Shown one piece after another: positions 5,875-48,799 of a stretch of DNA of 64,000 bases (positions within the stretch are counted from its first letter, which is position 1; each line of letters starts with the position of its first letter). The position numbers were made by a program, and so were the translations under genes. The DNA lies in assembly GCA_946187345.1 (NCBI GenBank), contig CAMHQD010000010.1:1-64000 (forward strand), written 5' to 3'. The notes under the pieces are model-generated. The model was not told where the DNA came from. It did no database searches and worked only from the letters and a program-made list of their open reading frames with translations. Source of the DNA: an uncultured Porphyromonadaceae bacterium (GTDB taxonomy: Bacteria; Bacteroidota; Bacteroidia; Bacteroidales; Muribaculaceae).

Positions 5875-6036
5875 AAGGTTTAGAGGTTTAGCGTTGAGAG
5901 GTTGAGCCATTTGCTATCGCAAATGGGAATAATTGTAGGGCCTGGCCTTGGCCTGGCCGCAAGTAGTGACAAAACTATTATCCCCGAGCGCTATAGCGCG
6001 AGGCTCAACCCCTCAACTCTCAACCCTCAACCTTTC
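5875..6036. repeat. Heptad-armed intergenic element B
   Basis: Same architecture as element A: GTTGAG-type left arm, inner CATTTGC-TATC-GCAAATG hairpin, a full copy of the 24-base GGCC-rich repeat at 5936-5959 (starts TAGGGCCTGGCCTTGGCC), a GAGCGCTATAGCGCGAGG stem and a CTCAACC right arm. It fills the porM-porN gap. Confidence 0.75.
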
Positions 6037-6051
6037 AAAACGATTATAATA

Positions 6052-11080: not shown

Positions 11081-12505
11081 ATGATGAGACTGCGACACAT
11101 CATTCTGGCCCTGATATGCCTGGCAACACTCTGTGCGTCAGGCCTTGACCGGCGCATCAAGAAGTTGACACCCATCGGTGCCGACCGCTCAGGCCGCACC
11201 TGGGAGTCACACTTGCCTTACGATGGTATCGATGTGGCTCGCTATCAAAAAGGTGCCGACTGGGCAAAAATCGCAGCCGACAAAAACATCAAGTACGCTT
11301 ATATCAAAGCCACCGAGGGTGCCAACCGCGTGGACGAGTGCTATACCTACCACCTCAACGGCGCGCGCAAGCACCACATCAAGGTGGGCAGTTACCACTT
11401 CTTCTCAATGAAAAGCAGCGTCACGGCACAGTTTGCCAACTTCAAGCGCACCGTCCACAAGGACAAGCAAGACCTCATCCCGATGATTGACGTTGAGTTG
11501 AAGGTGGTGGGATTTACGCGCAAACAGTTGCAAGACAGCGTCAAAGCGTTTGCCGACCTCATACGCGAGCATTACGGTTGCGAGCCGCTAATATATGTGG
11601 GCATGAACTACTTCAAGGAAAACTTCGATAAATCGTTTGCCGATTACAAACTGTTCATCCCGCGCTACAGCGGCAACGACGACATTGAGCCGGTGTTGGC
11701 TTACGGAGCCAAATGGACCATATGGCAGTTCACACAAGAAGGCCGCATCCCGGGCATTGACGGCATCCCCGGCATCGAGGGCAACGTCGACCTGAGTTGC
11801 CTCAACGACGGCGTGACGGTCAACGACTTGCTGATTAAGAACAACCCTGCCCGCAAGGGCAAAAGCCACAAAAAAACAGAGGTAGCACCCGTCACAAAGC
11901 CCGAAGCGAAAAACCGCGACCAAAGGGCTGATAGAGAACACGAGGAGACTGAGCGAGAGAAAATCGAGCGTTTCAAGCGTGAGAAAGCCGAGCGTGAGAA
12001 AGCCGACAAGGACGAACGGGAGCGACGTGAGAAAGCCGAGAAAGATAAGGCAAAAGCCGATAAGGAAGCCCACGAAAAAACCGAGAAAGAACTGAAAGCC
12101 GCCAAGCAGAAAGCCGAAAAAGAAAAGAAAGAACGCGAGAAAGCCGCGCGGGAGAAAGCCGAAAAGGAGAAGAAAGAACGAGAGAAAGCCGAGAAAGAGA
12201 AGAAGGAGCGAGAGAAGAAAGAGCGGGAGAAAGCCGAGAAAGAGAAGAAAGAGCGGGAGAAGGCCGAGCGGGAGCGCGCCGAGCGAGATGATGACGATGA
12301 TGACAAGCAGGACAAAGCGACTGTCTCCACCACAGCGGCTTCCACAGCGGCAAAAGCCAAGACAAAGGCCAAGAAAGCGAAGCAACCCTCCACGCGCGAC
12401 AAGCAGCGGGCCGCGGCACGCAATGCCAAGAGTGGCAAGAAGAGCGCCAACAGCACCGGCACCAAGCGCAAGACCAATAAGAGCAGCGCCGATAATGACG
12501 ACTGA
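11081..12505 (+). CDS. Secreted GH25 lysozyme-like muramidase with long charged tail
   Basis: 474 aa (or starting at the adjacent ATG 11084). A signal peptide (IILALICLATLCASG) precedes a GH25 domain (about residues 40-255): GIDVARYQKGADW with the first catalytic-type Asp, YAYIKATEGAN, VGSYHFFSM, LIPMIDVE with the second acidic pair, and WTIWQFTQEG. GH25 enzymes cut the MurNAc-GlcNAc bond of peptidoglycan. Residues from about 275 to 410 are almost entirely Lys, Glu, Arg and Ala in EKAEKEKKERE-type repeats, likely a stable single alpha-helix, followed by an Asp run and a basic tail. A smaller GH25 lipoprotein follows directly. The tail may bind or span the periplasm; that is inference. Confidence 0.88.
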   Translation: MMRLRHIILALICLATLCASGLDRRIKKLTPIGADRSGRTWESHLPYDGIDVARYQKGADWAKIAADKNIKYAYIKATEGANRVDECYTYHLNGARKHHIKVGSYHFFSMKSSVTAQFANFKRTVHKDKQDLIPMIDVELKVVGFTRKQLQDSVKAFADLIREHYGCEPLIYVGMNYFKENFDKSFADYKLFIPRYSGNDDIEPVLAYGAKWTIWQFTQEGRIPGIDGIPGIEGNVDLSCLNDGVTVNDLLIKNNPARKGKSHKKTEVAPVTKPEAKNRDQRADREHEETEREKIERFKREKAEREKADKDERERREKAEKDKAKADKEAHEKTEKELKAAKQKAEKEKKEREKAAREKAEKEKKEREKAEKEKKEREKKEREKAEKEKKEREKAERERAERDDDDDDKQDKATVSTTAASTAAKAKTKAKKAKQPSTRDKQRAAARNAKSGKKSANSTGTKRKTNKSSADNDD

Positions 12506-12582
12506 ACTGCCCCCAACTACCTCCTTTAAGAGGGTGATAAAACAGGGAAAGAACGACTGACGACTGATATATTTTGAATAAG

Positions 12583-13296
12583 ATGCTGAAGAAGAGATGG
12601 TTAATGGGCACATTGGCAACGTTGCTGATAGCGGCAATCGTTGCCGGTTGTAGCGACGGAGGTGCTGATGATGGCACGCCGCGCGTGCGTGGTCGCCTCG
12701 ACTATCAGGGCATCGACCTCTCAAGCCATCAGGGATTGGTGGACTGGAATAAAGTCGCGGCCGACACCAACGTCCACTTTGCCTACATCAAGGCCACCGA
12801 GGGAGCAACATACCATTCGATATACTACGACCACAACGTGCGGCACGCGCGACGCAACGGCATCCTCGTGGGCAGTTACCACTTCTTCTCAACCACCTCG
12901 TCCGTCGACGAGCAGGTGAAGAATTTCACCACCCACGCGACACCTTCCACACAAGACCTACTGCCTATGATTGACGTGGAACGCATCGGCAGGCTCAGCA
13001 GGCGGCAACTGCAGGACAGCGTGATGCTAATGGCGCGCCGTTTAGAGGAAATCTACGGCCGGCGACCAATCATCTACTCCACGCTCGAGTTCTATAACAC
13101 TTATCTCGTGCCGCAATTCAACAATTTCCCGCTTTACATCGGACGCTACGCCACCGTCGAGCCCAAAATCCACTGGCAAGGACGCTACACCATCTGGCAA
13201 TTCAGCGAGCAGGGTGTCGTGCCGGGCATCGAACGCTATGTCGATTTATGCCGTCTGCGCCCGGGCATCACCCTCAACGACCTCAGGCTCCGTTAA
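12583..13296 (+). CDS. GH25 muramidase lipoprotein
   Basis: 237 aa from ATG 12583 (an in-frame TTG at 12574 is also possible). Lipobox IVAGC within MLKKRWLMGTLATLLIAAIV indicates a lipoprotein. The GH25 domain is complete: GIDLSSHQGLVDWNKVA, FAYIKATEGATYHS, VGSYHFFSTTSS, LLPMIDVERIG and YTIWQFSEQGVVPGIERYVDL. It is a tandem paralogue of the preceding muramidase but lacks the charged tail. The pair probably arose by duplication and may act in peptidoglycan turnover from different anchors. Confidence 0.9.
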   Translation: MLKKRWLMGTLATLLIAAIVAGCSDGGADDGTPRVRGRLDYQGIDLSSHQGLVDWNKVAADTNVHFAYIKATEGATYHSIYYDHNVRHARRNGILVGSYHFFSTTSSVDEQVKNFTTHATPSTQDLLPMIDVERIGRLSRRQLQDSVMLMARRLEEIYGRRPIIYSTLEFYNTYLVPQFNNFPLYIGRYATVEPKIHWQGRYTIWQFSEQGVVPGIERYVDLCRLRPGITLNDLRLR

Positions 13297-18428: not shown

Positions 18429-21400
18429 TTACTGTTTGACGGTTTTCTTGCCGTTGACGATGTAGATGCCGGCGGGCAGCGACTGCCAGTCGCCGGTCAT
18501 GCGGACGCCCATCAGGTTGTAGGTGCCTTCGACGGCCACTGTGTCGCCCTCGGCGAGGATGTCGTTGATGCCGGTGATGGTGCCGCTGCTGTCGCCGTCA
18601 AAGACGATGCGCAACGCCTGGTCGGCCGGCGTGGTGAAGTAGGCGCTCGAGCCGTCGACGTTGCCGCCCAGGGCGCTTGCCCAGCCCACGCTGCCGTCGT
18701 CGGTCATCACCTTGACGCTGTTGTCGGCGGTGGAGACGCTGGTGGGCGAATAGGTGCCGGTCATGGTGTACTCGTCGGTGCCGCTGACGCGACGCGGAGC
18801 GTTGTAGGTGGCGCTGCTAACGTTCACGGTGTGAGTCACCGAACGGGCGGACTCGTTGCTGAGTGTCACGCCGCTGAAGGTCATTCCGGACGTTGTGTCG
18901 TGAGCCTTAACCAGATAGGGCACGCCGGCCTGGATTGACGTGGCTTGCTCGAAAATCATGTTGCCGGCGTCGAATTGGCGGCCGCTGGGGGCCGTCACCG
19001 GGTCGCCCTGCTGCACGCCGATATACTCCATGATGACGCCGTCAAACTCGGTGATGTCAAACGGCACCGTGAGCGGCGTCCACACTCCGGCGGTGAACGG
19101 CTTGGCCAGCCTCACCTCCACGTCGCTGATGCTGCTCGAGGGCGAGACGAAAGCCTGCGTGGCGTCCACTACGTGGGTAATAACCGGCTCGTCGCCCAGG
19201 GCGACAGGATAGACGGCCGATGGCGTGGCGATGGCGCTCACGTCGACCAGCGCGCCGTTATAGACGTTATATGACGCGTTGAACGTGTTGGTGAGAGTGA
19301 GTGAGGTGGTGCCGACTTTCACGTTGCTGACCTTCACCCAGTCGGCGGCGTGGCCGGCGACTTCAGTGGCGGCGACTGCGACGGGCTCGGTGGCGGTCTC
19401 GGTCACCGGGTCGGCGATGACGAACCACGGGCAGTGGGTGCGGTCGCTACTCTGGCACAGGTCGGGCGTGAGTTGCGGGTTGCCGTCACTGGCGGTGGAG
19501 TACTGTCCCATAAGCCAACCGGCGATGTGCTGGTCGTGGGCCATCTCACGCGTGGTGACGAGACCCTTGATGAGCATCGCGCCGCTGTTGTCGCGCACGT
19601 AGGCGTCGTAGGTGTAGGTGCCGGCGGTGGCGTTAGAGGCCGTCTGTGTGGCGTGCAGCACGCGGGCGTTGTAACTGTCGGGCAGGTAGAGGCGCACCGT
19701 CTCGCCGGCAGTCACCTCCTTGAAGGCGGCGATGCCCGTGACGGTCGTCACCGAAGAGGCTGCGGCCGCCTGCCGGTAAATCTGCACTTCCTTGTTGTCG
19801 CCCGCAAAAGACGAGGCGTAAGTGCCGAATCGCGTACTGCCGTTGTTATAGTTATATTGCAGGAAGCGGGAACCGGTACCGCTCTTGATTGTAGCGGTGG
19901 CATCGCTGCCGATTTCTATTGTGTGGGTTTGGGTTGAATTATCCGAAGCCATGGTCACGCTATTGCTGGCACTATTGGCATATAGGTAATTGGAGCCGCT
20001 GCGGAATTTCCACGCGTCGCTTGAGCCCTCGAGAACAAGCACAAGAGCCTCGGCATTGTCACCGAGGGTCACGGTGCTCTTGTCGGAACTGATAGTGACA
20101 TCGGTAGATGAGCCCGCAAGGGTAGAAGAGCCTGACAGTCCGGCGGTCATTACCTCGCCGGCACCATTTGAGACGATGATGACGATGTCGCCGCTGGCCA
20201 GGGTGGAGTCATCGGTGACGAGGGTGTACTCGTCGTTGGTGACCGGAGCCTGGTAAGTGATAGTGGCGGAGGCAACTTCGCTGTCGGTCATACCGCTCTT
20301 GACGGCGATGGCCTTGACGGTGGTCGTCGCGCTGACGTTGAACGCCGCGCTATAGGTCTCGCTGGTGCTTGTGGGCGTCGAGCCGTCGGTAGTGTAGTGG
20401 ATTGTGGCGCCGTCGGTCGTGCAACTGATCGAAACGCTCGTCGGCCCCGTAATCACGGTGCCGTCGCCCGGCGAAATCACCGGCGTCGCCACCTGCTCGG
20501 TCACCGGCGGCTCTTCGCCGCCGCCGGAACTCGTCTGGCGATAAAGATAGACTTTGCCCAAATTACTCGTTGATGCGTAGCATGAGAATATCGGGGAGCC
20601 GTTATTGGGGTTATAGCGCATTGAATTGCGATTGTCGGTGTCGTTGAATGTCACAGAAGCCTCACCGTTACTGATTGTTATTGTCGCTTGGGCTGCCGTC
20701 GAGATAGTGCTCGTGTAGTTGAGGTAATTTTTAGTTGAACTGTTGGCAGTCAGGTATTGCTCGTTATATTGTGTGCCGGTGGCTTGGAACGACCAACTGT
20801 CGCTGCTGCCCACAAGATTGAAAATCTCGGTATCCGAAGTTGGTTCGATAGTCAAGTCGCTCGTGACTGTCACAGCGGTAGCGGTGCGATTATTACTCTT
20901 TTCAGTGTTGGCGATGGCGTATGCGCTGCCTGCGGTTCCTGCGTTAGCAATAATGATTTTATCGCCTGCGCTGAGTGTTGAGGCATCAGTGACAAGTTGG
21001 AAGGCACCCTCCTCATCTCCGCCGCCGGATGAGCCGGCCTCGATAGTGTAGGTCGCGGTGGCGATGGGGCTGACAACATTGTTGACGATGGCGATGGCCT
21101 TGACGGTGGTAGTCTCGCTGACAGTGAGTGCGCTGCTATAGAGACTGCTGGAGGTCGTCGGGTCGGTGCCGTCGGTGGTATAGCGGATTGTGGCACCGCT
21201 GGCGGCAGTGATAGTGACGTTCTGAGCGGCGGTGTAGGTGCCGCCGGCAGGCGAGAAGGTCGGCGCAGCGGGCGTGGGCGTCACGTCGCCGGTCGTGCCC
21301 TCGCGGTAGAGTTGGACCGCACTGCCGGTGGAAGACGTCGCGGCGACAAAACTCGTGTTGTTGTATCGCAGGTAGCGGTATTTGTTGCCAATGTTTTGCA

Positions 21401-28020: not shown

Positions 28021-28116
28021 TTTTCCCGCGAGCGCAAAATGTTTTGGGTGGATTTTTCCCGCGAGCGCAAAATGTTTTGTGCGGATTTTTCCCGCGAGCG
28101 CAAAATGTTTTGGGTG
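28021..28116. repeat. Three tandem 33-bp repeats
   Basis: Three nearly identical units (TTTTCCCGCGAGCGCAAAAT then GTTTTGGGTGGAT) with period 33 bases, ending directly at the stop codon of ansA (28117). Only a few positions differ between copies. The period is a multiple of three, so it is open in several frames. Confidence 0.85.
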
Positions 28117-29145
28117 TCAGTCGGAGATTTCGCCGCAGAGGTTGTGGCGCATATAATTGGCGACAACGTTCGGCTCGAGATTCATGCCAAAGAGGTACAT
28201 CAACTTGGTGATGGCGGCCTCGACAGTGATGTCACGTCCGCTGACCACACCGGCTGTGGCGAGGCCGTTGCCGGTCTCGTAGCGCGTGTCGTCCACGCCG
28301 CCGTTAACACACTGCGTGACATTCACAATCACGATGCCTCGTGCCACGGCATCGTTGAGCGCCTTGAGGAACCACTTGTCGGTGGGGGCGTTGCCGGCGC
28401 CGAAAGTCTTGAGCACGATGCCCTTGATGCCGGGCGTGTGCAGCAGGTGTTGCAGGGTGTATTCCGGCAGCCCGGGAGTGACTTCGAGCACCATCACCGC
28501 GGTGTCCATGGCGTGGCGCACCTTGAGCGGACGGTGCCCCGGCGAGCGGTAGAGGGCATCTGTGTCGAACTCGATGCCCAGGCCGATGTCGGCCAGCGGC
28601 GGATAGTTGTTGCTCTTGAAGGCGTCGAAATTGTCGGCGCTCATCTTTGTTGACCGGTTACCGCGCCACAGGTGGTTCTCAAATAGGATGGCCACTTCCT
28701 GCACCATCGGTTCGCCGCGCGAGTCGATGGCCGCGGCCACTTGCAGCGCGGTGATGAGGTTCTCCTCGCCGTCGGTGCGCACCTCGCCGATGGGCAGTTG
28801 TGACCCGGTGATAATCACCGGTTTGTGCAAGTTCTCGAGCATAAAACTGAGGGCGCTGGCGGTGTAGGCCATCGTGTCGGTGCCGTGGAGGACAACAAAA
28901 CCGTCGTAGCGGTCATACTCTCGCTCGATGATCACGGCTATTTCGGCCCAATGCTCCGGGCGCATATTGGAACTGTCGATGGGAGGCTCAAACTGGCGGT
29001 GGTCGATGTCGTAGTCGAGTTTGCTCACCTTGGGCACATTGTCAATCAGGTGGTTGAAGTCAAACGGCTGCAGCGCACGCGTGATAGGATTCTCTATCAT
29101 GCCGATGGTGCCGCCGGTGTAGATTATCAGAATTCTGGGTTTCAT
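28117..29145 (-). CDS. ansA: Type I L-asparaginase
   Basis: 342 aa. Catalytic threonine motifs IIYTGGTIGM near the N-terminus and VVLHGTDTMAYTASALSFML, then NLHKPVIITGSQLPIGEVRTDGEENLITAL, are diagnostic of the bacterial asparaginase family. No signal peptide is present, consistent with a cytoplasmic type I enzyme that makes aspartate and ammonia. It follows tadA on the same strand after a gap with an inverted repeat, and is the last gene of that strand run. Confidence 0.95.
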   Translation of the reverse strand: MKPRILIIYTGGTIGMIENPITRALQPFDFNHLIDNVPKVSKLDYDIDHRQFEPPIDSSNMRPEHWAEIAVIIEREYDRYDGFVVLHGTDTMAYTASALSFMLENLHKPVIITGSQLPIGEVRTDGEENLITALQVAAAIDSRGEPMVQEVAILFENHLWRGNRSTKMSADNFDAFKSNNYPPLADIGLGIEFDTDALYRSPGHRPLKVRHAMDTAVMVLEVTPGLPEYTLQHLLHTPGIKGIVLKTFGAGNAPTDKWFLKALNDAVARGIVIVNVTQCVNGGVDDTRYETGNGLATAGVVSGRDITVEAAITKLMYLFGMNLEPNVVANYMRHNLCGEISD

Positions 29146-29162
29146 TGTTTATGAAAGGTTTA

Positions 29163-29742: not shown

Positions 29743-32439
29743 CTAACGCAGATAGTCGCGGGTGAGCCGCAACAGGCGTTCAAGGTTGGTGTCGTTAAAG
29801 AAGTCACGGGCGTGACTGGAACTGATGCCGTCGTTACCGGGCTCACGCGAGGAGATGCGGTTGATATATACCACCACCATGATTCCACGCGGTGGCGCCG
29901 GATTGTTACCGAGGATACCGCTCGCCACATCGTTTGGCATGAGGGCCATGCAGTAGAGGCCCGGGTCAAGCCATCGCTTACCCTTCTTGAAGTTAACCGC
30001 CTGATATTCCTGATGATTGTCAGGCGTGCCTGTCTTGCCAAAGACAGTGAGGTTCGGGGCGAGCCTGTGCACGCGCTGGTACATCGTACTCAGCAAGGTG
30101 GAAGCCGTGCTGCTCTGCGCATCGCGCAAGGCGGTGAGCACGGCGTCCCACGCGGCGTAGTCATAGCGCGTGCTGTCCGGCCGCAGCAACAGAGGCGGAA
30201 CAGCGACGCTGTCGCCCGACACAAGCGAGGCCGTCACTTGCCGCTTGGTGAGCATGCGTGACCACGCCTCGGCGAGTTTGACGCAGTTCCACTCGTTGTT
30301 GCCTTGGCCGAGTATCCACGGCACCAGCGTCTGGCGCAGTGTGTGGCTATTTTGCAACACTGTGGCAAACTGCATATTGACCATATCGGGGCTGACTATG
30401 TCTAAAGCGAACTTGCGGTCACGGTCAAGATGCAAATTATTCCACACATATTGCGCCATATCGAGCGTGATGGTGTCGCCGGCATTCCACGACTTGATAC
30501 CGTAGAGGTTCTCGACAGTCTGCATCAACGGGTTATAGAGCAATGCCGTGGCAGCAGCGGCATCGTGCTTGAGATTCCAGTCGCCGGCATTGAAAAGCGG
30601 GTCGCCGGCCGGCACGACAGATTTACCCCGATTCATCGCGAGCATGGCCAGCGCGACCGGATAGACGTCGTCACTGACGGTAAGGAATTGTGTCATTGAC
30701 GGCTTGCGTCCCCAATGGCTATCGCCGGCCCACTTTGCTGTGGGTTTGTTGAAAAGCATATGCTGGCCATTGGCCGCGATGCCATAGTCGGCCGGGGATG
30801 GAGTCCATGTGGCGAGGCTTGGCTCGGTGAGCGCGGCGGCGGTGGCGAGCAACGGCTTGAACGTTGAACCGATGTAGTGTCTGATGAGCGCAGGGTTCTT
30901 CATTCCCAACGGCAACTGCCGGTCGGCGTAGTAATCGTCCTCTGAACGGTAGAACGGGGCCGCAAGCAGATTGCCAGTGGCAAGGTCCATCACCGTAACA
31001 GACACTTCAAACTCGTTGGTCGGGCGGCCATTCTTGTCCACACCACGCTTGAACTGCGGCTGCCGCATCAGCGAGCGAGTGTAGGAGGTAATCATCTTCT
31101 CGAGTTCACGCGAGAGCAACGGGTCAATAGTGAGGCGGATAACCGCACTGTCGTACACCGTGTTGCGCAGCGACGAGTTGAGGCCTCGCACGATTTGCTG
31201 GGTGAAGCAGTCGGTCATCGTGGCAGGAATGTCGATGCGTTGCTTACCTTGTGAGGTGTGGGCCAAATGGGAGATTGTGAGTGCCGGATTGTCGCGCGTG
31301 ACGGTAAGTTCGGCGTGCATCTTGTCACTATCGATGATGATATGGAGGCTTGCCGCACCATCGGTTGGCATGGCAATGACGTCCATCGACCGGCTTGCCT
31401 GGCCGTGGCTCTTGATTTCCACGAGGCCATCGCTATGGTAACAGTTCACGTGCAACTCATCGCCACCCTGCTTGGCCATCCGCAGGCGTTGCCCGTCAAA
31501 TGCCATGAACAAAGCGTTCCCACCCGGCAGTTGCAGGCAGACGATGGGCGCGCCGCTGCCGTTGTCGTCATCGTCGTCGTCATCATCATCGTCGTCATCG
31601 TTGCCGCCATATGCCGTGTCTAACGCTATCCAATCGAGTTCTTTGCCATCGGCCATGGTGATGAGGCGCCGCTTGGTGTCGAGAGCCAATGACGTGTAAT
31701 TGCCGGAAACCGGATGCGACAGACCGCTGCGCCGCAACGGCAACACACTGCCACCATAACTGACGAAGCAGTGATTGTCGCGTGAAAAGAGGCCATTCTC
31801 GGCGGCAAGCACTGTGCTGCGCCATGGGTCACTATCAAGCGCGATGCGGAACATTGACGGGATGAGCCTGATGCTCGTGATTTCGATGCCACCATGCTTT
31901 GAAACGGCGCTGATAGCAAGCAATCGCTCGCCCAGACTCTGTTGCTGGCGTTTGAGCAACGATGCCATGCTGCTGTTGACGTAAAACAGGCGCAACGCCT
32001 CGTCATCAATGGCATCCGCGTCGATGCCCACCAGTCGCAGGTCGGTAGCCCGCCCTGCTTCCATGATGTCGTTCTCTTCATATGGCAAAGCGAACGTGAG
32101 GCCGCGATACCGCTTGTTCAAGTCGTCCACGCTATAGCACGGCTTCTGCTTGCCCACGTTGCCGCGGTCGACAAGAGACTGCAGCAGTTCGTTGCCATGA
32201 CTGATAAAGCCCGAAGTGGAATCCGGCGTGTAGATACCCGCCGAGGCCAAACGTCCCAACGAATTGCAGCCGTGCAGCAAATAACCCATCACGGCAATCA
32301 TGGCGGCCGCGATGGCGATACCGGCGATGGTGCGCCCGTGGCGCTCGTGCCATTGGGGATCCAACCGTGGCGATGATGTCTCTAATTTAGAATTCACAAT
32401 TATAGTGTTCAGCGCAAAACGGCCTTGCCGTTTTGCCAT
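29743..32439 (-). CDS. Divergent penicillin-binding transpeptidase-like protein with 12-Asp tract
   Basis: 898 aa. One N-terminal membrane helix (TIAGIAIAAAMIAVMGYLL, about 37-56) followed by a large periplasmic part. A transpeptidase-type core is visible: VMDLATGNLLAAPFYRSEDD, then HYIGSTFKPLLATAAAL (SxxK, S525/K528), VSDDVYPVALAM in place of SxN (S589, D591) and VFGKTGTPDNH (K802-T-G). The SxN asparagine is replaced by Asp. A run of 12 Asp residues is encoded at 31564-31599. The beginning is encoded by a hairpin repeat also found at 35764-35783, so the true start could be later. It is the last gene of the GTPase/SEDS-like operon, 8 bases after the adaptor gene. A bitopic PBP partner for the SEDS-like protein is the natural reading; activity is unproven. 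Confidence 0.75.
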   Translation of the reverse strand: MAKRQGRFALNTIIVNSKLETSSPRLDPQWHERHGRTIAGIAIAAAMIAVMGYLLHGCNSLGRLASAGIYTPDSTSGFISHGNELLQSLVDRGNVGKQKPCYSVDDLNKRYRGLTFALPYEENDIMEAGRATDLRLVGIDADAIDDEALRLFYVNSSMASLLKRQQQSLGERLLAISAVSKHGGIEITSIRLIPSMFRIALDSDPWRSTVLAAENGLFSRDNHCFVSYGGSVLPLRRSGLSHPVSGNYTSLALDTKRRLITMADGKELDWIALDTAYGGNDDDDDDDDDDDDNGSGAPIVCLQLPGGNALFMAFDGQRLRMAKQGGDELHVNCYHSDGLVEIKSHGQASRSMDVIAMPTDGAASLHIIIDSDKMHAELTVTRDNPALTISHLAHTSQGKQRIDIPATMTDCFTQQIVRGLNSSLRNTVYDSAVIRLTIDPLLSRELEKMITSYTRSLMRQPQFKRGVDKNGRPTNEFEVSVTVMDLATGNLLAAPFYRSEDDYYADRQLPLGMKNPALIRHYIGSTFKPLLATAAALTEPSLATWTPSPADYGIAANGQHMLFNKPTAKWAGDSHWGRKPSMTQFLTVSDDVYPVALAMLAMNRGKSVVPAGDPLFNAGDWNLKHDAAAATALLYNPLMQTVENLYGIKSWNAGDTITLDMAQYVWNNLHLDRDRKFALDIVSPDMVNMQFATVLQNSHTLRQTLVPWILGQGNNEWNCVKLAEAWSRMLTKRQVTASLVSGDSVAVPPLLLRPDSTRYDYAAWDAVLTALRDAQSSTASTLLSTMYQRVHRLAPNLTVFGKTGTPDNHQEYQAVNFKKGKRWLDPGLYCMALMPNDVASGILGNNPAPPRGIMVVVYINRISSREPGNDGISSSHARDFFNDTNLERLLRLTRDYLR

Positions 32440-32447
32440 TCGATTAC

Positions 32448-34118
32448 TCAGTAGGCAAACAACTTGTTGACATCCGCGTTATTGCGGCATTGTTCCAGTT
32501 GGGTAACGACCCAGAGGTAATAGACCGGCATATTCAGTCCACGCTTCACGCCGCCATTCAGTCGTTTGAAAGCGTCGTTGTCGATTGTGAACGTCTTGCC
32601 GGCGACACTGAGTGAGCGGATTTGCACCATCGTGCCATTATCCATTGCTATTGCCTGCCGCAGCAGGCTGTTATCGGGCGAGATGGTGATAGTCGAGCCG
32701 CTGCTCAGCGTCAGCGTGCAATCGCTGGCGAACTCGTCATCGCGCGCCTGCTGGCCCAACGAATCATAATAAGCGTTGTCTAACGCCATCAGCCGCTGCT
32801 TGTCAATCTCTCGCGTCATAGCAGTGTCGGCGTAGAGGCTATCATTGCGCAGCCGCATTTTCAGAGCCACATTGATGTGGTTGGTGCGGAACAATGCCTC
32901 GAGGTTCCAATTGGCGATATGGGTCATCGGGTGGTCAAAGGCGATGTCGCCTGTGAGCGTGTCGGCGACGACCATCGTGCGGTTCAGACTATCGGTGAGC
33001 GAATACTGCCGCTGCTGCACGAGAGTTTGCACAACGATTGAGGTATCGGCCGTGATGACGGCATCATGACGCGCCGTAGGCCGCGGCGACGACTCTTGCA
33101 AGGCGAAATACCGGCCCAGCGCCGCTCCGCAAAGCAGACACACCAACGCGATAATTGCCGGTAGAGGGCCGGACTGGACAAGCGCCCGCCACCATCGCGT
33201 CCAGTTGCCATCGTCGCCGGCACCCTCACTTGGGCCGTCACCATCGGACGTGTGGACAATAATGTCTGTCTCCTGGCCTTCGCCGGCACGAATGGGTCGT
33301 GTGATGGGACTGGCAGCCTTCCGCTCGCGTTTAACCAGCATATCAAAGGCTTGTGCTGCCGTGCCGCTTCGCGCCGGTCCTTGCACCCTCACGTCATCGC
33401 CGGTCCAGTCAATAATGATGTCGCCACTATCCGCGATAGCCATACTGCCGAAGTGTGCCACCACACGGGCATTGTCAATAAAGCGCGACATGGTGTTGAA
33501 ACCGTCCTCAACACCAAAGGCCAGACCCATTTGTTGTCTGACGGTAGCGGGCATAGCGTCGAGCACATCGAGCAATATCGCGAGGCGGCCGCTGTGACGC
33601 ATCTTATCACCAAATAGAGCATCCTCCCGCGGCAACTTGATGTAGACCTTGTGGTCATCAAGCACTGCCAGGGCGATAGCGTTGGCAAGAGTTAAACGGT
33701 TGTCACCCGTCAGCCGCGGTGCCGACGGCTCAACAACGGTCACGGCGGCACTCACCTGCCGGTTCTCGGTGTCGTAGTCGTGGATAACATCCAAGTGGTC
33801 GAGCATCACGCGCAGCGGCCGCTTGAGGAGTTTGACATCATTGGCTCCCATCTCGGCTACAGCGCGCATATTATAGCGGCGCCCCATTCCCTCAAAACGG
33901 GTGTAATCACCCTGCGCGATGACCATGGTCAGCCGGCCGGAAGGGCGCATGAACGCAAAGATGACCGCATGATCCTGCGGCAGGCTTCCGTTTAGCGGCA
34001 TGCCATAGTCATCGGCCTCGCGCGAGATACCGGAAGTGAACTCGATCACACTGTCACCACGCGAATTGACAGGCGCGCCCCACACCTTCCTCTCTATTTT
34101 TATCTCGTTCCCAATCAT
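32448..34118 (-). CDS. Single-pass membrane adaptor, possibly GTPase-associated (GAP1-like)
   Basis: 556 aa from ATG 34118. The cytoplasmic N-terminal part (about 1-230) opens EIKIERKVWGAPVNSRGDSV, continues LPQDHAVIFAFMRPSGRLTM and GDYTRFEGMGRRYNMRAVAE, and contains RFIDNARVVAHFGSMAIADS. Then come an acidic linker, one transmembrane helix (PAIIALVCLLCGAALGRYFA, about 310-330) and a roughly 220-residue periplasmic domain (LTGDIAFDHPMTHIANWNLE; CTLTLSSGSTITISPD). The N-terminus reminds me of the GAP1 proteins paired with double-GTPase conflict systems, from memory only. It sits between GTPase-like gene 2 (gap 21) and the PBP-like gene (gap 8), and would join the cytoplasmic GTPases to the periplasmic enzymes. 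Confidence 0.65.
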   Translation of the reverse strand: MIGNEIKIERKVWGAPVNSRGDSVIEFTSGISREADDYGMPLNGSLPQDHAVIFAFMRPSGRLTMVIAQGDYTRFEGMGRRYNMRAVAEMGANDVKLLKRPLRVMLDHLDVIHDYDTENRQVSAAVTVVEPSAPRLTGDNRLTLANAIALAVLDDHKVYIKLPREDALFGDKMRHSGRLAILLDVLDAMPATVRQQMGLAFGVEDGFNTMSRFIDNARVVAHFGSMAIADSGDIIIDWTGDDVRVQGPARSGTAAQAFDMLVKRERKAASPITRPIRAGEGQETDIIVHTSDGDGPSEGAGDDGNWTRWWRALVQSGPLPAIIALVCLLCGAALGRYFALQESSPRPTARHDAVITADTSIVVQTLVQQRQYSLTDSLNRTMVVADTLTGDIAFDHPMTHIANWNLEALFRTNHINVALKMRLRNDSLYADTAMTREIDKQRLMALDNAYYDSLGQQARDDEFASDCTLTLSSGSTITISPDNSLLRQAIAMDNGTMVQIRSLSVAGKTFTIDNDAFKRLNGGVKRGLNMPVYYLWVVTQLEQCRNNADVNKLFAY

Positions 34119-34139
34119 CGTCAAGTAATTAATTACCGG

Positions 34140-35735
34140 TTATTTATTGCCGAAGAAGTAACTCAACAGGTTGCCATAGTCCACACCCGGGTCGATACCA
34201 TGCTGCAGCAAGATATCGGTGAGCAGTTGTGTTGTGCCAAAAGCGAGCGGCGTGGCCAATGTCCAGTCGTCTGTGAAGTGGGTGTCGTCACGCTTGCCAT
34301 AGATATTGAAGTCAACATCAATGGGGTGAGCCACGAGGAAAGTGTGCGGCGCCATACCAATGGCGGCGCAACTCTCACCGCTGCTCTGATATCCGGTGAG
34401 TGACCTGAAGTAGCGGTCACGCAACTCCACATATTGCTTGAGTTGCAACGGCCGCGCGTGAGAGCCATCAGCCGGCTTGCTGTAAGCCATGACGGTGTAG
34501 GAGCCTTGCTGCGCGAAATAGTTTCTTGAGTGCGGATAATTGCGGCGCAGCCGCGGCACCTCAATCTCGTTGCCGTCATCATCGTGGCGGCGGTCAACGA
34601 GCGACACCCCCTGTGAGAGGGTGAGATGGAACTCAAGATCGCTGTCAAAGTGGACCTCATTGTGCAGAAACGCGCGCGCAAAGGCAAGCGTCATCCACGA
34701 GTAGGTGAAATTGCTGTCTTTGTTGCCGGCGTTATATACACCGGCCATATTTTTGGCATCAAGGATACTGTCAACTCCCTTGAGCGCAAGATACCAATTC
34801 TTGGCATTGTTCGCCGAGTCGGTGATGTTCTTGAGTTGCTGCAACGTCTGCACCATAGCCATGAAGTCGGCATTGGCGGCCATTGCGCGGCCGAGCGCCG
34901 CGTCACTCAGTTGCTTGCCGGGCGAGGCCATCATGTCGCTGATAACAATATCGGTAGCCGTGATGGCATACAGCAGCGGCGTGAACGCCAGTCGCGCGTT
35001 GGTGTCGGTAAACGTCTTCCTGTCAAGATCGGAATGGTACTTGATGAGATAGGCATTGATGTCCAACAAATCCCATGCCGCGTCGATTGCGTTGATGAGA
35101 GTATCTATCTCCAGTTGCCAGAAACGCTCAAGCAACTGCTCGCCGTTTACCATCAACTCATCGTTGTCGGCCTTGCAGCCCGAGCGTTGCAGGTTACTAA
35201 TCAAGTTGGCATTGTCGATATAGCGGTTGCGGCTTGATGCCGCGTATTGGTTGCTGTCGGTTATCATATCACCGGCGGGAGTATAGGCCCCACCCTTGAC
35301 AAACACAGTGTAACGCTGCTTGTCATCACGTTGCCACCGCCGCAACCCGAATATCTTGCTCTTGCACTCCAGCAAAGCCTCATAGATACTCTTGAACATA
35401 GTCAAGTTGTCGGGCGTGAAGCACTCGCCGGGTATATCGGCAAGCAACACCTCCACTGTCTTGCCGCCGATGGTGACGTGGTCGGCATAGATATCATATT
35501 GCCGCATGGGAAACATCGCTGTCTTCTCGATGTCCATCAATTGGCTCTTGAGTTGCAAGATAGTGTTAAATAAAGGATTGGAGCGCTTGCCATTGCCAAT
35601 GGCGCAATGTTGCTCAAGCGCCGTAATCAAGTCACGCAGCAGGTAACTCTTGCCACTGCTCGTGGTGCCGGTGACGGCAATGCGCAACTGCGACTTGCCG
35701 GCCCATGCAGAGAAAAGTCTATCAAAATATCCCAT
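34140..35735 (-). CDS. P-loop GTPase-like protein 2 of the SEDS/PBP-like operon
   Basis: 531 aa, no membrane helix. Walker A is IAVTGTTSSGKSYLLRDL (G23-S30) and the G3-like motif is LLADIPGECF (D100-x-P-G-E). It is a full-length paralogue of the product of 38876-40462: both share DxPGECF, a long helical middle with YAITATDIVISDM / YAATDIVFCDK, WYLALKGVDSILD / WYLAFKGMDSLIP, and the C-terminal (A/T)xPIDxxFxIYG and FGxxQLxTD segments. No clear NKxD motif was found. The pattern fits TRAFAC-class GTPases of the double-GTPase type. The two distinct copies suggest a heterodimer in one complex. Confidence 0.75.
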   Translation of the reverse strand: MGYFDRLFSAWAGKSQLRIAVTGTTSSGKSYLLRDLITALEQHCAIGNGKRSNPLFNTILQLKSQLMDIEKTAMFPMRQYDIYADHVTIGGKTVEVLLADIPGECFTPDNLTMFKSIYEALLECKSKIFGLRRWQRDDKQRYTVFVKGGAYTPAGDMITDSNQYAASSRNRYIDNANLISNLQRSGCKADNDELMVNGEQLLERFWQLEIDTLINAIDAAWDLLDINAYLIKYHSDLDRKTFTDTNARLAFTPLLYAITATDIVISDMMASPGKQLSDAALGRAMAANADFMAMVQTLQQLKNITDSANNAKNWYLALKGVDSILDAKNMAGVYNAGNKDSNFTYSWMTLAFARAFLHNEVHFDSDLEFHLTLSQGVSLVDRRHDDDGNEIEVPRLRRNYPHSRNYFAQQGSYTVMAYSKPADGSHARPLQLKQYVELRDRYFRSLTGYQSSGESCAAIGMAPHTFLVAHPIDVDFNIYGKRDDTHFTDDWTLATPLAFGTTQLLTDILLQHGIDPGVDYGNLLSYFFGNK

Positions 35736-35802
35736 AAGACAGTTGTTCGTTATCTTGAGCAGAACGGCAAGGCCGTTTTGCGCTAAACTCCTTTGCTACA
35801 GA

Positions 35803-38800
35803 CTATTTGCCGGAAGAATGAGTGTGACCGGTGGCTGTCATAAAGGCCAACAGCACCGCACTCTCCAACGCTTCGCCCACAGCATCGACCCCCATACCGG
35901 GGTTCAATCGTCCGGTGAACGGCAACCAGCCCATATAACTCAAGAACAGGTAAATTGTTGTACCCACCCACATCAGCATCGCCAATAGGCGCCAGGCCAT
36001 AGTGCGGCTCACAGTGAGCACTTTGCCTGACTGGATAGACTGACGGCTGCTGCGGTCATCCGGCAGGCTGTGGTGAGCCACCGCCCAGGCCAGCAGCACC
36101 AACAACAGACCATAAGCCAAATAAGCCACGGCACCATATGCTCCCAGGAAAGCCGCCTGAAGCGACACATCGTTGAGCACCACCGGCGATTGCCCGCCGC
36201 TCACCGACGGGTGCAACGGCTTGCGCTCATTGCTGAGCGGGTCAGCGCCGCGATTCCAATTCAAGTAGTGGTCCATCACAATCATGAACTCAACATCCTG
36301 AACAGCATAGCGATAGCCAGAGCGGCTATATTGGTTGAAATCAGAACTGAGCGACATACGGCGCGTGCCGCGACCATAGTCCACCTTGTCGGCGTCAAGC
36401 AGATAGTTTGGCACAAACACATGCAGCACGAGCGCCAACAGCACCACGCTGCCGGCAAAGAGCCAACCTGTCTGCCGCTTCTCAATCTCATTTGCCTCAC
36501 GCTCGTCAACGCCACTCTGCTCGAGGTGGGCACTCTTGAACGACAAGGCGTAGATGAGATAAACAAAGATAACGAAGCCCACAAAGTTGGTGAAGTAGCC
36601 CAAGTCGCCGCCACCGAAACCCACGGCCGCGACAAAATGAGCCACCGCGGCCGCAAGCATCAGCACAAAGCGAAACACGCGTTGCCTGACGGCATTGTTT
36701 CTCTTGCAATTTCGCGCCAGAGCCATGATAATGTAACCCATCGCAAGCCCCAGAACACAGACCATGAGAGACACACCGGCTGTGCGGCTGAATGAGAGCC
36801 CACACCCTATCATCAGCAAGGCAAGCAGCGCGGCGATGCCGGCAACACTGCCAAGCGCCACACGCTCGACATGCTTGCCCGGCAGCGGCATCGTCATGAT
36901 GTGGCGGGCAGTATAGCCGAGCGAAACCACAACGAGCAACGTGATGCCCGCTGTCGCGAAGTTGCCCGGCACCAAAGCGGCCGTCAGAGTAATCACGACA
37001 AGCATCACAAGCGACCAACCCCACCACGGCAACAATCGAGCGATCTTTCCGCTCGATGGCTTTGTGACAGTTGTCGCCATGGCAGCACGCGCGAGCAGCA
37101 CGGCTTGAGCCACTATAGCGACGATAATGGATAGAACGAGAGTATATGGCACACTGCGATGCAAGTCATTAATACCAACGCGCTCATTCCACGCCATCAC
37201 GTTGAAAGTGAATACCTCGCCAGGCAAGTAACTGTCCATCACAGCCGGCGTGACACCCGGATCCAAAACGGTGAGCAGATAGACCACACAAGCCGCCAGA
37301 CCAACCACTGTGACAACAATGGCCGTCCACGCACCCGCCAAGCGCTTGCGCCCCGGCACGGCACGTTGAGGATCGATGTAGACATGGCTGTGGTTGAGAA
37401 TCACCATCAAGGCAAAAGAGAGCAGCAGGGTGAGGGCGGCATTGACCGGCGTGACGGCGGTGAGTTTATCAAAATAGGGGTAAGTGTAACTGAGTTTGAA
37501 AGCGATCATGCACTTGGCAATGCAATAAGTGGCGGCAATGCATAGCACGATAATCACAAGTTGCCGAGGACCCTGCCGGTAGCCATAGCCTGTCAGCAAG
37601 CCCTTGCGCAGCCGCTGTGAGTCAAAGGTGTGCCACGTGGCGATAATCAGCGCGATGAGCATCAGCAGCAGCGGATAGAGATAAGACAAGGCGAACCCGC
37701 CGTCGATCACTCCGGCACGCATGATAACATCGCCGCCGACGGTGTGAATGTTATGTCGGGCGATAGTGGGTGCCATGTGATGAGCGACAAGGGCAGTTGT
37801 CGTTCCGTCGGGAGCACGCAGGCACAGGCTGTCGCCGCCGGTAAAAAGGTTGCAAATCTCTGAATTGACATATGATGAGAACGCCGGCAACAACATCGCG
37901 CACGGTGACGGAAACGCGCTTCCGGACTGGCACAATGTGAGCAGACCGGCATAGGGTGAGGCCCAAGCGCGCAGTGTGTCAAGGCGCTCAAGGTATGTGA
38001 TGGGTTTTGGAAAAGTCACTCTGGTGGTCTTGCCGCTCGGGTCGGCGTGAAGCATAATGTGGCCGGCACCCCAATCAGTTGCGATAAGAGTCGGTTTGGC
38101 AACGATATTGACACTGTCTATAGCGAAGTACTTGTCCGGACGCTCCTGGCAGTAGGTGCTGCGGCTCATCTGCCAGAACTGCAGTTTGCACAGTTGGGGC
38201 GTGGCTGTGGCGGCAGTGTTGAACTTATAGGCGTATTCAATCACAGAACCCTCATGCATCAAGCGTGTGCCCTTGTCGAGGATTACTAATTGCCACTCGG
38301 CCCTGTCATTGCGCCTGTCGCTCTCATCACGATAGAAGAAGGAGCGCACATCGGCCACACTCGCGGCCGGCAGCGACGCGTCATGGCAGCGGAGAGCGTC
38401 ACTGAGCATGACATACTGCGAGCGGTGTCCGGCAAGGGCACCGGCGGCACGCAGTTGAGACACCTCGACGGCAAGCGTTTTTCCGCCGGCAAGCACGACT
38501 TCAATCTTGTCGGCTTCGGCAAGGGGGTGCCTGTTGGGATTTACTGTGTTAATCTTGTAGTATGGCAGAGTGTCGTTGTCGCGGGCCACACTGATGTCCC
38601 ACGACGAGCCATCATCGGCAAGCGTGGCTGAGAGTTGCCGCGGCGACAATCGCGAGAACGTTATATCACTATTGCTGCCCACGGTGATACCCTTGCTCTT
38701 GTTGAGGTCAAACCCGTCAATAGACAGAACCACACGCCGCTCATTGCACATGGTGAGGCTCAACATCAACATCACGGCGACAACGGCGGTGATGGCGAGA

Positions 38801-38835
38801 ATTCTGCGCCCTGTTTTATCTATTGAGGTACCCAT
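35803..38835 (-). CDS. Divergent SEDS-like (FtsW/RodA fold) polytopic protein with large periplasmic N-domain
   Basis: 1010 aa from ATG 38835 (an in-frame TTG at 38886 overlaps the upstream gene). One helix near the N-terminus (LAITAVVAVMLMLSLTM), then about 350 residues probably periplasmic (VVLSIDGFDLNKSKGITVGS ...), then roughly a dozen membrane helices from about residue 385. SEDS-like features lie in the last part: LVPGNFATAGITLLVVVSLG (compare DLGTAxVLLLV), SPVVLNDVSLQAAFLGAYGA followed by a helix (compare HTDFIFAxxGEELG) and MWVGTTIYLFLSYMGWLPFT then GRLNPGM (compare GLLPFTGxPLPF). The SYGGSS signature is replaced. A paired PBP-like gene in the operon supports the reading. It could be a catalytic or a regulatory pseudo-SEDS. 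Confidence 0.6.
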   Translation of the reverse strand: MGTSIDKTGRRILAITAVVAVMLMLSLTMCNERRVVLSIDGFDLNKSKGITVGSNSDITFSRLSPRQLSATLADDGSSWDISVARDNDTLPYYKINTVNPNRHPLAEADKIEVVLAGGKTLAVEVSQLRAAGALAGHRSQYVMLSDALRCHDASLPAASVADVRSFFYRDESDRRNDRAEWQLVILDKGTRLMHEGSVIEYAYKFNTAATATPQLCKLQFWQMSRSTYCQERPDKYFAIDSVNIVAKPTLIATDWGAGHIMLHADPSGKTTRVTFPKPITYLERLDTLRAWASPYAGLLTLCQSGSAFPSPCAMLLPAFSSYVNSEICNLFTGGDSLCLRAPDGTTTALVAHHMAPTIARHNIHTVGGDVIMRAGVIDGGFALSYLYPLLLMLIALIIATWHTFDSQRLRKGLLTGYGYRQGPRQLVIIVLCIAATYCIAKCMIAFKLSYTYPYFDKLTAVTPVNAALTLLLSFALMVILNHSHVYIDPQRAVPGRKRLAGAWTAIVVTVVGLAACVVYLLTVLDPGVTPAVMDSYLPGEVFTFNVMAWNERVGINDLHRSVPYTLVLSIIVAIVAQAVLLARAAMATTVTKPSSGKIARLLPWWGWSLVMLVVITLTAALVPGNFATAGITLLVVVSLGYTARHIMTMPLPGKHVERVALGSVAGIAALLALLMIGCGLSFSRTAGVSLMVCVLGLAMGYIIMALARNCKRNNAVRQRVFRFVLMLAAAVAHFVAAVGFGGGDLGYFTNFVGFVIFVYLIYALSFKSAHLEQSGVDEREANEIEKRQTGWLFAGSVVLLALVLHVFVPNYLLDADKVDYGRGTRRMSLSSDFNQYSRSGYRYAVQDVEFMIVMDHYLNWNRGADPLSNERKPLHPSVSGGQSPVVLNDVSLQAAFLGAYGAVAYLAYGLLLVLLAWAVAHHSLPDDRSSRQSIQSGKVLTVSRTMAWRLLAMLMWVGTTIYLFLSYMGWLPFTGRLNPGMGVDAVGEALESAVLLAFMTATGHTHSSGK

Positions 38836-38875
38836 AACGCACAACTCGTAATAATTCTCACCAAACGCGCCACAT

Positions 38876-40462
38876 TCAAAGCGCAAAGAAGTATTGCAGC
38901 AATTTCCCCTGGCCGTCGCAGTCGTCGGGCAATGTAATGCCGGCGGCGGTCATCACATCGGTGATGAGTTGGCGGGAACCGAAGCACAAACGCTCGAGCG
39001 GCCGCGTGGCACCCTTAAAGAGGTTGTCGTCCACATGGCCGTAGATCTTGAAACGGCGGTCGATGGGCGTAGCGGTGAAGTAGACATGCGGCGGCATTGA
39101 CGTGAAGACACCCACGGCGCTGTCGGCGTTCAAGTGGGTCGCGCTGCCGAATGAGTAGATGCGCGCCGCGATGTGGTCGCCTATGGCATTTTGCTCATGA
39201 CGGTGGTCAGTGCTGTTCACCATATATGTCTCCGGCGCGTTGAAGTATGGCTGCTCATCATCGACCACTCGCCGCAGCATCTCATAGAGGTCGTTCTTGA
39301 ACTCGTCAGGCTTCTTGATGTCATCTTTGTGGTCGCGCGCGGTGAGCCAGCGCCACATCTCCTCGGCATCAATGTCAAGGCTATGGTGATTGATGGCACG
39401 CGCGAGCATGAGCACAAACAGCGAGTAGGTCAAGTCAGCATCTCCATTGCACCGGTTGTAGATCGCCTGATACAGATTGTCCGGAATCAAACTGTCCATT
39501 CCCTTGAAGGCAAGATACCAACGCTTGGCGCCGGCCTTGCTGTCTCCCACGAGGGCCATCGTGCCGGTGAGCATATCATAGAAAGCGTTAGTGCTCGTCT
39601 GGTCTGGTTGGGGTTGCATAGCCTTGCTCACTGGCATGGCGCTCTTGTCACAAAAGACGATGTCCGTCGCCGCATAACTGAAGTAGAGGAAATAGAAATT
39701 GCGCAGGTGCACGTTCTCGAAGGCCGACGTGCTAATCTCCTCACCCACGGCCTCGCTCACCGACTGACCAATCAGGCGCCAAGCCCTCGCGATGGCGTTC
39801 AACGCGCTATCGGTGACATAGTCAAAGAAATGAGTGATAAATTCCTTGCCATCTATAAACTTGTCGCGGTCATTGGCCTTGTAGCCTTGCCGCTTGAGGT
39901 TATTGAGCACCTCGGTGGTTGTGCGGTAGCGGTCCACACCGGCGGTGCCCGGCCCGGCAATCCCCTCATCAATGGCGACGGTGTTGTCGCTGTCAACAAA
40001 GTGGATTGTGCGTTGCACATGGTCACCGCGGTGCCATGTGCGCACGAGGAACACATTGTCACTCAACTCCAGTAATTGGTTTTTGACGTGCTTGAACACG
40101 TTAAGCGCGTTTGCCTCAAAACATTCGCCTGGCACGTCAAGAAACTCCAACCGGCAATCGGCGCCACGGCTACCCGGCGCCGAGAGCAGACACGCGTAGT
40201 GCGTGCGGCAGGCATATAGGCGACTGCGCTCTATGGCGCCATTACTGCCCGTGGTGCGACGGTTCAGGTCACTGAAGTCCAAAAAACCGGGCACTGTGGT
40301 CACACGGTAGCCCATGCGGAATTGCAATGCCGCCGCGATGTCCTGCAGCAGGTAGGTCTTGCCGCTTGTCGTGGCACCCACAAGCGCAAGTCTCACCGTG
40401 GGCACACGCCGCCGGACAAGCCGCCTCAACCACTGTATGAATTGTTTCAGCACTTTGAACAT
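38876..40462 (-). CDS. P-loop GTPase-like protein 1 of the SEDS/PBP-like operon
   Basis: 528 aa. A basic amphipathic N-terminus (FKVLKQFIQWLRRLVRRRVP) could touch the membrane. Walker A is LALVGATTSGKTYLLQDI (G29-T36), the G3-like motif is LEFLDVPGECF (D109-x-P-G-E). The rest is helical and homologous throughout to the product of 34140-35735, including FTATPIDRRFKIYGHVDD and CFGSRQLITDVM near the end. It is the first gene of the operon, with an exact -7 element 23 bases before the ATG. A TRAFAC-type GTPase acting in the cytoplasm with its paralogue is the best guess; nucleotide preference cannot be read from sequence alone. Confidence 0.75.
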   Translation of the reverse strand: MFKVLKQFIQWLRRLVRRRVPTVRLALVGATTSGKTYLLQDIAAALQFRMGYRVTTVPGFLDFSDLNRRTTGSNGAIERSRLYACRTHYACLLSAPGSRGADCRLEFLDVPGECFEANALNVFKHVKNQLLELSDNVFLVRTWHRGDHVQRTIHFVDSDNTVAIDEGIAGPGTAGVDRYRTTTEVLNNLKRQGYKANDRDKFIDGKEFITHFFDYVTDSALNAIARAWRLIGQSVSEAVGEEISTSAFENVHLRNFYFLYFSYAATDIVFCDKSAMPVSKAMQPQPDQTSTNAFYDMLTGTMALVGDSKAGAKRWYLAFKGMDSLIPDNLYQAIYNRCNGDADLTYSLFVLMLARAINHHSLDIDAEEMWRWLTARDHKDDIKKPDEFKNDLYEMLRRVVDDEQPYFNAPETYMVNSTDHRHEQNAIGDHIAARIYSFGSATHLNADSAVGVFTSMPPHVYFTATPIDRRFKIYGHVDDNLFKGATRPLERLCFGSRQLITDVMTAAGITLPDDCDGQGKLLQYFFAL

Positions 40463-40484
40463 ATGCTACTGTTGTTAAAATATG

Positions 40485-40492
40485 CAAAGTTA
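40485..40492 (-). promoter_or_regulatory. Promoter of the GTPase/SEDS/PBP-like operon
   Basis: Minus-strand TAACTTTG matches TAnnTTTG, 23 bases before ATG 40462. It is the only consensus -7 recognised for the five tightly spaced genes down to 29743. Confidence 0.65.
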
Positions 40493-48632: not shown

Positions 48633-48647
48633 CACACACGTCAATTT

Positions 48648-48799
48648 TGAGGGGTTGAGAGGTTAAGCGTTGAGCCATTTGCTATCGCAAATGATAAGTA
48701 ATGTAGGGCCTGACATTGGCTTGGCCGCTCCGAAGTCAAATCCATTATCCCCGAGCGATAGCGCGAGGCTCAACCTCTCAACGCTCAACCCTTCAACCT
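48648..48799. repeat. Heptad-armed intergenic element D
   Basis: GTTGAG left arm, CATTTGC-TATC-GCAAATG hairpin, a degenerate GGCC repeat at 48704-48727, a CGAGCGATAGCGCGAGG stem and a CTCAACC right arm. It lies between tRNA-Arg and the 160-aa protein gene, so it may end tRNA transcription. Confidence 0.75.

Follow-up and report, generated by a model that had tools for sequence, protein, structure and literature searches.

What would a bacterium gain from an operon that joins two P-loop nucleoside triphosphatases (NTPases) to a polytopic membrane protein and a penicillin-binding-protein (PBP)-like transpeptidase? Such an operon lies in the window analysed here, the first 64,000 nucleotides of contig CAMHQD010000010.1 from an uncultured Porphyromonadaceae bacterium (assembly GCA_946187345.1). 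Open reading frame coordinates bear out what an earlier note, made from the sequence alone, had described: five genes between positions 29743 and 40462, all on the minus strand, separated by 40, 67, 21 and 8 bases. They encode NTPase A (528 residues, 38876..40462), a membrane protein of 1010 residues (35803..38835, ATG at 38835), NTPase B (531 residues, 34140..35735), which is a paralogue of NTPase A with 27% identity, a single-pass adaptor (32448..34118; 556 residues from the ATG at 34118, 558 from a TTG) and a bitopic transpeptidase of 898 residues (29743..32439). Hydropathy gives 14 transmembrane-like segments in the 1010-residue protein, one each in the adaptor and the transpeptidase and none in the NTPases. 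We consider it probable, by a narrow measure, that the operon encodes an accessory synthase of the cell wall: a very divergent polymerase of predicted SEDS fold and a transpeptidase, which the two NTPases would switch from inside the cell by way of the adaptor. This reading draws on how the membrane core is predicted to fold, on the transpeptidase domain and its motifs, on the P-loop pair, on the gene order and on six gene fusions.

The membrane protein consists of a beta-rich domain predicted to be extracytoplasmic (residues 34-377, 37705..38736, minus strand), for which an FHA-like fold is a lead, and a membrane core (residues 375-1010, 35803..37713, minus strand). In structure comparison the predicted model of this core matches the SEDS fold, the SEDS rows exceeding WaaL by over 5 Z units; when Foldseek is given the core, RodA ranks second (E 0.14, probability 0.94). 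The first Foldseek row is a membrane pyrophosphatase (E 0.027 with the whole protein, E 0.12 with the core), which we reject as a relative: template modelling scores are about 0.1, and it is not among the top rows of the second structure comparison. None of 19 relatives of the protein matches the Pfam family PF01098, an hhalign comparison of the family with 23 canonical SEDS proteins was not significant, and a profile search of the PDB returned no SEDS protein, its best row being cytochrome b-245 (E 0.5). The SEDS resemblance is thus detectable in the predicted model by fold comparison alone, all sequence routes having failed; the label "SEDS-like" in the earlier note holds for the predicted fold but not for the sequence signature. 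Because PF01098 and hhalign matches are absent, we call the protein SEDS-fold and do not place it in the SEDS family.

Residue conservation was read from 40 aligned SEDS-fold proteins, the window copy and those of 39 related loci. All 40 keep Asn514, Asp515, Glu614 and Glu617 of the core, as well as the His, two Ser, Asn and Asp of the motif LHPSVSTGQSPVVLND, which is followed by PFTGRLNPG, and all have an Asp at the position of Asp889 (codon 36169..36171, minus strand). The catalytic residue of E. coli RodA is Asp262, flanked by Glu258, His260 and Thr261, according to PMC10449877; canonical SEDS proteins of the same genus carry EQHTDF. From the order of the motifs we propose Asp889 as the putative counterpart of RodA Asp262. 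Two observations weigh against this assignment: weak hhalign alignments place LHPSVSTGQSPVVLND on a different RodA segment, and the loop that holds Asp889 has a predicted local distance difference test score (pLDDT) below 50 in the model.

The transpeptidase assignment was corroborated by profile searches. PF00905 matches 47 of 53 aligned relatives (best E 4.9e-8) and the window protein itself at E 4.9e-4, below the Pfam cut-off; on the strength of the Pfam matches in relatives, we take the 898-residue protein to be a transpeptidase. When the PDB was searched by profile, FtsI/PBP3 chains made up all 15 rows (best E 0.023). An NCBIfam search gave a single weak row, PBP_1a_fam, at 18.7 bits and far under its cut-off. 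The SxxK motif (as GSTFK) and the KTG motif named in the earlier note are both present; Ser524 and Lys527 are found in 53/53 aligned proteins, Lys801 in 52/53 and Gly803 in 53/53. In all 53 the usual SxN is replaced by SxD (Ser588, Asp590), and for this reason we use the name PBP-like transpeptidase and not class B PBP. The alignment holds 53 of 67 proteins; six long fusions and eight others were left out, and one fusion, P0024, is included. About twelve Asp codons follow one another in the extracytoplasmic part of the window gene (about 31560-31610), and one related transpeptidase gene (L041:18962-21603) is broken into three reading-frame pieces, through decay or an assembly error.

Both NTPases have the P-loop and DxPGE motifs reported for them, GATTSGKT with DVPGE and GTTSSGKS with DIPGE. 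We aligned the two with 43 of 55 NTPases from the related loci, leaving out seven of at least 600 residues and five others; the P-loop Gly and Lys are kept in 45/45 of these window-type proteins and the PGE Glu in 44/45. A Glu in the Walker B motif is a defining feature of DO-GTPases, according to PMC7159879, and the window-type proteins carry this Glu. DO-GTPase2 matches eight of the 45 (best E 0.0022), and generic P-loop families match about as often: MMR_HSR1 nine (best 0.05), and FtsK_SpoIIIE, AAA_16 and AAA_22 eight each. No NKxD motif is obvious in the 45 aligned proteins, so guanine specificity is not fixed by their sequence.

Six loci bear most directly on how the adaptor may work. In L009, L011, L032, L034, L039 and L042 a single reading frame joins its N-terminal domain (independent E-values 5e-49 to 1e-74) to a full transpeptidase. 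The transpeptidase part begins with a transmembrane segment, and L011 has a second, weak one. These natural fusions strengthen the earlier suggestion of a membrane adaptor, and because the fused transpeptidase works outside the membrane, the N-terminal domain is probably inside the cell. The window adaptor has this domain, one transmembrane segment and a C-terminal domain. Among 33 separate adaptors, which span 250 to 1109 residues, hydropathy finds the transmembrane segment in 28, and two of the other five are cut by a contig end. The earlier note had also pointed to double-GTPase systems with GAP1 partners; for that idea the window NTPases offer a weak DO-GTPase2 similarity, and GAP1 Pfam models match 0/30 adaptors (the window adaptor and 29 of the 33). 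Against 36 of 120 GAP1 proteins listed (596 found) plus one more, the adaptor N-terminal domain scored 24.2 with GAP1-N1 (P 0.01; seven decoy families scored 9.9-17.6), and full-length comparison gave P 0.57. Motif order and the N-terminal score make a kinship between adaptor and GAP1 suggestive, though not significant; the c5 protein of related loci showed no link to GAP1.

Scanning genome contigs turned up 44 related loci. The contig end precedes the transpeptidase in eight of them, and the other 36 without exception keep the SEDS-fold protein, at least one NTPase, the adaptor (separate in 30, fused in six) and the transpeptidase on one strand, which answers the question whether relatives keep these genes together. 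All 44 are titled Prevotella or Prevotellaceae, Muribaculaceae, Porphyromonadaceae or Bacteroidales, and 11 titles name a ruminant sample. Some loci have additional members: 12 have GH25 proteins, of which three were tested and match PF01183, and six have SH3b proteins, of which one was tested. L010, L013, L031, L033 and L035 have an added membrane protein (c7), flanked by the SEDS-fold protein on one side and by a longer NTPase (825-888 residues) on the other.

The spread of the operon is patchy. The SEDS-fold protein matches nine of 101 genomes of the genus, one of them as a marginal fragment, and the transpeptidase occurs in eight, the same eight that have a clear SEDS-fold protein; we left G775 out of the carriers, as its match (E 3.6e-4) covers 49 positions and contains a stop. 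Across the order, in an even sample of 393 genomes taken from a larger group, the one genome with a match was the host itself. Canonical SEDS proteins (PF01098) are present in 13/13 genomes searched and at two places in the host; close to each of these two, the contig also carries a PF00905 gene. No relative of the SEDS-fold protein was found in viral contigs or plasmids, phage records lying outside that search, and PADLOC returned only weak rows (best E 0.0082). In the window the operon abuts tadA, while in G007 the operon is on contig C31 and tadA on C17. Within the roughly 1.5 kb seen beside tadA, 0/14 genus relatives have the transpeptidase or NTPase A; another gene is usually there, and no clean empty site was found.

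The "consensus promoter" of the earlier note is upheld in part: a -7-like element, TAACTTTG (40485..40492, minus strand), lies upstream of NTPase A, the first gene, and matches the Bacteroidales -7 consensus, but no -33 element is obvious at the usual spacing. By sequence, the neighbours in the window are presumably PorX, TsaE, BirA, cobalamin adenosyltransferase and TadA. Farther away, on the plus strand, are two GH25 muramidase genes, 11081..12505 (profile E 7.5e-101) and 12574..13296 (E 5.7e-95). In the related locus L006 two GH25 genes immediately precede NTPase A; the first window gene is 77% identical to an operon-adjacent gene there, and the second is 82% identical to the gene directly before NTPase A. 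The two gene orders suggest an inversion of about 27 kb (window 13296-40462), one breakpoint of which would fall between NTPase A and the second GH25 gene. A programmed, switch-like inversion is unsupported, no inverted repeats having been found at the two breakpoints. Identity with L006 reaches 98% over the stretch 28088-29160, which contains an asparaginase-like gene (28117-29145), against 70-82% in neighbouring stretches; this suggests a recent gene exchange. A dispersed repeat shows at window positions 5878-6044 and 48647-48798, which both match one stretch of L006 (about 19762-19936) at 81-83%.

A second type of NTPase links some of these operons to other genes. It belongs to a cluster (c1) of 64 proteins in 34 loci, the membrane partner included. 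In an alignment of 18 of 62 c1 proteins, TKxD is present in 18/18, and DO-GTPase1 matches eight of the 18 (best E 1.7e-4). The type occurs in 24 of the 101 genus genomes, in four of them within the SEDS operon. Another locus of the host, L096 (G000:C16:3000-22000), encodes SrfB-like (PF07520), SrfC-like (PF10139) and subtilisin (PF00082) proteins and a DO-GTPase1-like protein (E 0.0011, below cut-off). We compared it with five others of the genus, L139-L143. The NTPase and the SrfC-like, subtilisin and C5-like proteins of the host locus have homologues in 5/5, and its SrfB-like protein has one in 4/5, the fifth stretch starting too late to reveal it. Together the six represent a conserved multi-gene locus outside the SEDS operon, with a membrane protein and, in the host copy, zinc-ribbon proteins. 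Judged by sequence, related NTPase modules adjoin at least two different outputs, wall enzymes and SrfB-SrfC-subtilisin.

How might an accessory synthase of this kind operate? The SEDS-fold protein would polymerise a lipid-linked glycan, and the transpeptidase would cross-link it. The NTPases may bind the cytosolic domain of the adaptor. MreC activates RodA-PBP2 and FtsQLB activates FtsW-FtsI; by analogy, the nucleotide state could be relayed through the transmembrane helix of the adaptor to the transpeptidase and on to its SEDS-fold partner. The ectodomain of the SEDS-fold protein may sense an envelope cue, and the GH25 muramidases could open or trim the wall before the synthase refills it. 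Because the host retains canonical SEDS genes and most of the genus is without the operon, conditional wall building or repair is the most likely use. A narrower version, which we advance tentatively and as a minority expectation, is a nucleotide-gated synthase: the cytosolic NTPase pair would directly open and close the SEDS-fold/transpeptidase machine through the adaptor, for on-demand repair or sealing after envelope attack, with its own muramidases opening the breach.

The main rival reverses the direction of the signal. The transpeptidase-like protein would detect beta-lactams or wall fragments and signal inward through the adaptor to the NTPases, as in BlaR, with the SEDS-fold protein as a scaffold. 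A cytosolic domain fused directly to a transpeptidase would fit signalling either way, and the SEDS sequence signature is lost. We nevertheless hold a sensor to be unlikely, given the retained active-site motifs of the transpeptidase, the invariant Asn514, Asp515, Glu614 and Glu617, which suggest catalysis by the core, and the muramidases in the gene set. The muramidases, joined by SH3b proteins, also tell against another glycan as the product, where a GT-C type polymerase or ligase would build a surface polysaccharide and the transpeptidase-like protein would attach or trim it. With a transpeptidase as partner and WaaL so far below the SEDS rows, this is less likely still.

Two further explanations turn on the spread of the operon. 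Carriage by only eight of 101 genus genomes would suit a self-limiting conflict effector, whose NTPases release misplaced wall synthesis or hydrolysis upon infection and halt the cell, as proposed for DO-GTPase systems. The DO-GTPase-like matches and the related module at the SrfB-SrfC-subtilisin locus point the same way, but PADLOC gave no match of small E, viral contigs and plasmids gave no relative, and the two enzymes are constant here, unlike the variable effectors that PMC7159879 describes for DO-GTPase systems; we regard such an effector as improbable. The same patchiness counts against a stage-specific morphogenesis synthase serving normal growth, on the model of SpoVE-SpoVD in sporulation, as does the varying location relative to tadA. 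A SEDS-fold/transpeptidase pair on top of canonical SEDS genes is the pattern of stage-specific synthases, yet we rate this the least probable of the explanations.

If the accessory-synthase reading is true, a SEDS-fold/transpeptidase pair that an adaptor, in some loci fused to the transpeptidase, connects with P-loop NTPases would represent a new control principle that can be tested with purified parts; the well-studied wall synthases RodA-PBP2 and FtsW-FtsI are activated instead by membrane partners, MreC or FtsQLB. The SEDS fold would extend to proteins invisible to Pfam, and wall synthesis would become a possible output of DO-GTPase-like modules. In agreement with the earlier note, which knew of no described system of this composition, we found no description of an NTPase-SEDS-PBP operon in the literature searched, which covers few subscription journals.

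With RodA-PBP2 and FtsW-FtsI the operon shares a predicted membrane fold and a linked transpeptidase with SxxK and KTG; it differs from them in a membrane protein without a SEDS sequence match, in SxD instead of SxN and in the extra beta-rich domain. To our knowledge, the known pairs include neither such a domain nor NTPases or an adaptor of this kind. The SrfB-SrfC-subtilisin loci share the second-type NTPase and, in most cases, its membrane partner with related SEDS operons, but their outputs are SrfB-like, SrfC-like and subtilisin proteins, whereas those of the operon are wall enzymes. The DO-GTPase/GAP1 systems (Kaur et al. 2020, PMC7159879), so far as the accessible text describes them, likewise have paralogous P-loop NTPases in which a Glu follows the Walker B Asp, and they too have membrane partners and a patchy spread; by contrast, the window NTPases are weak DO-GTPase2 matches and the adaptor comparisons did not detect GAP1 (0/30 with Pfam). 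The words RodA, SEDS, FtsW, transpeptidase and penicillin are absent from the main text of that paper. An FtsW/RodA homologue fused to a HAAS domain and controlled by PadR (PMC11237479) is likewise a SEDS-type accessory protein under separate regulation, but it is recognisable as FtsW/RodA by sequence, and the accessible portion of its description mentions no NTPase pair or adaptor. The parts of the operon resemble known kinds; their combination, and the control of a wall synthase from inside the cell that it suggests, appear to be new in the literature searched.
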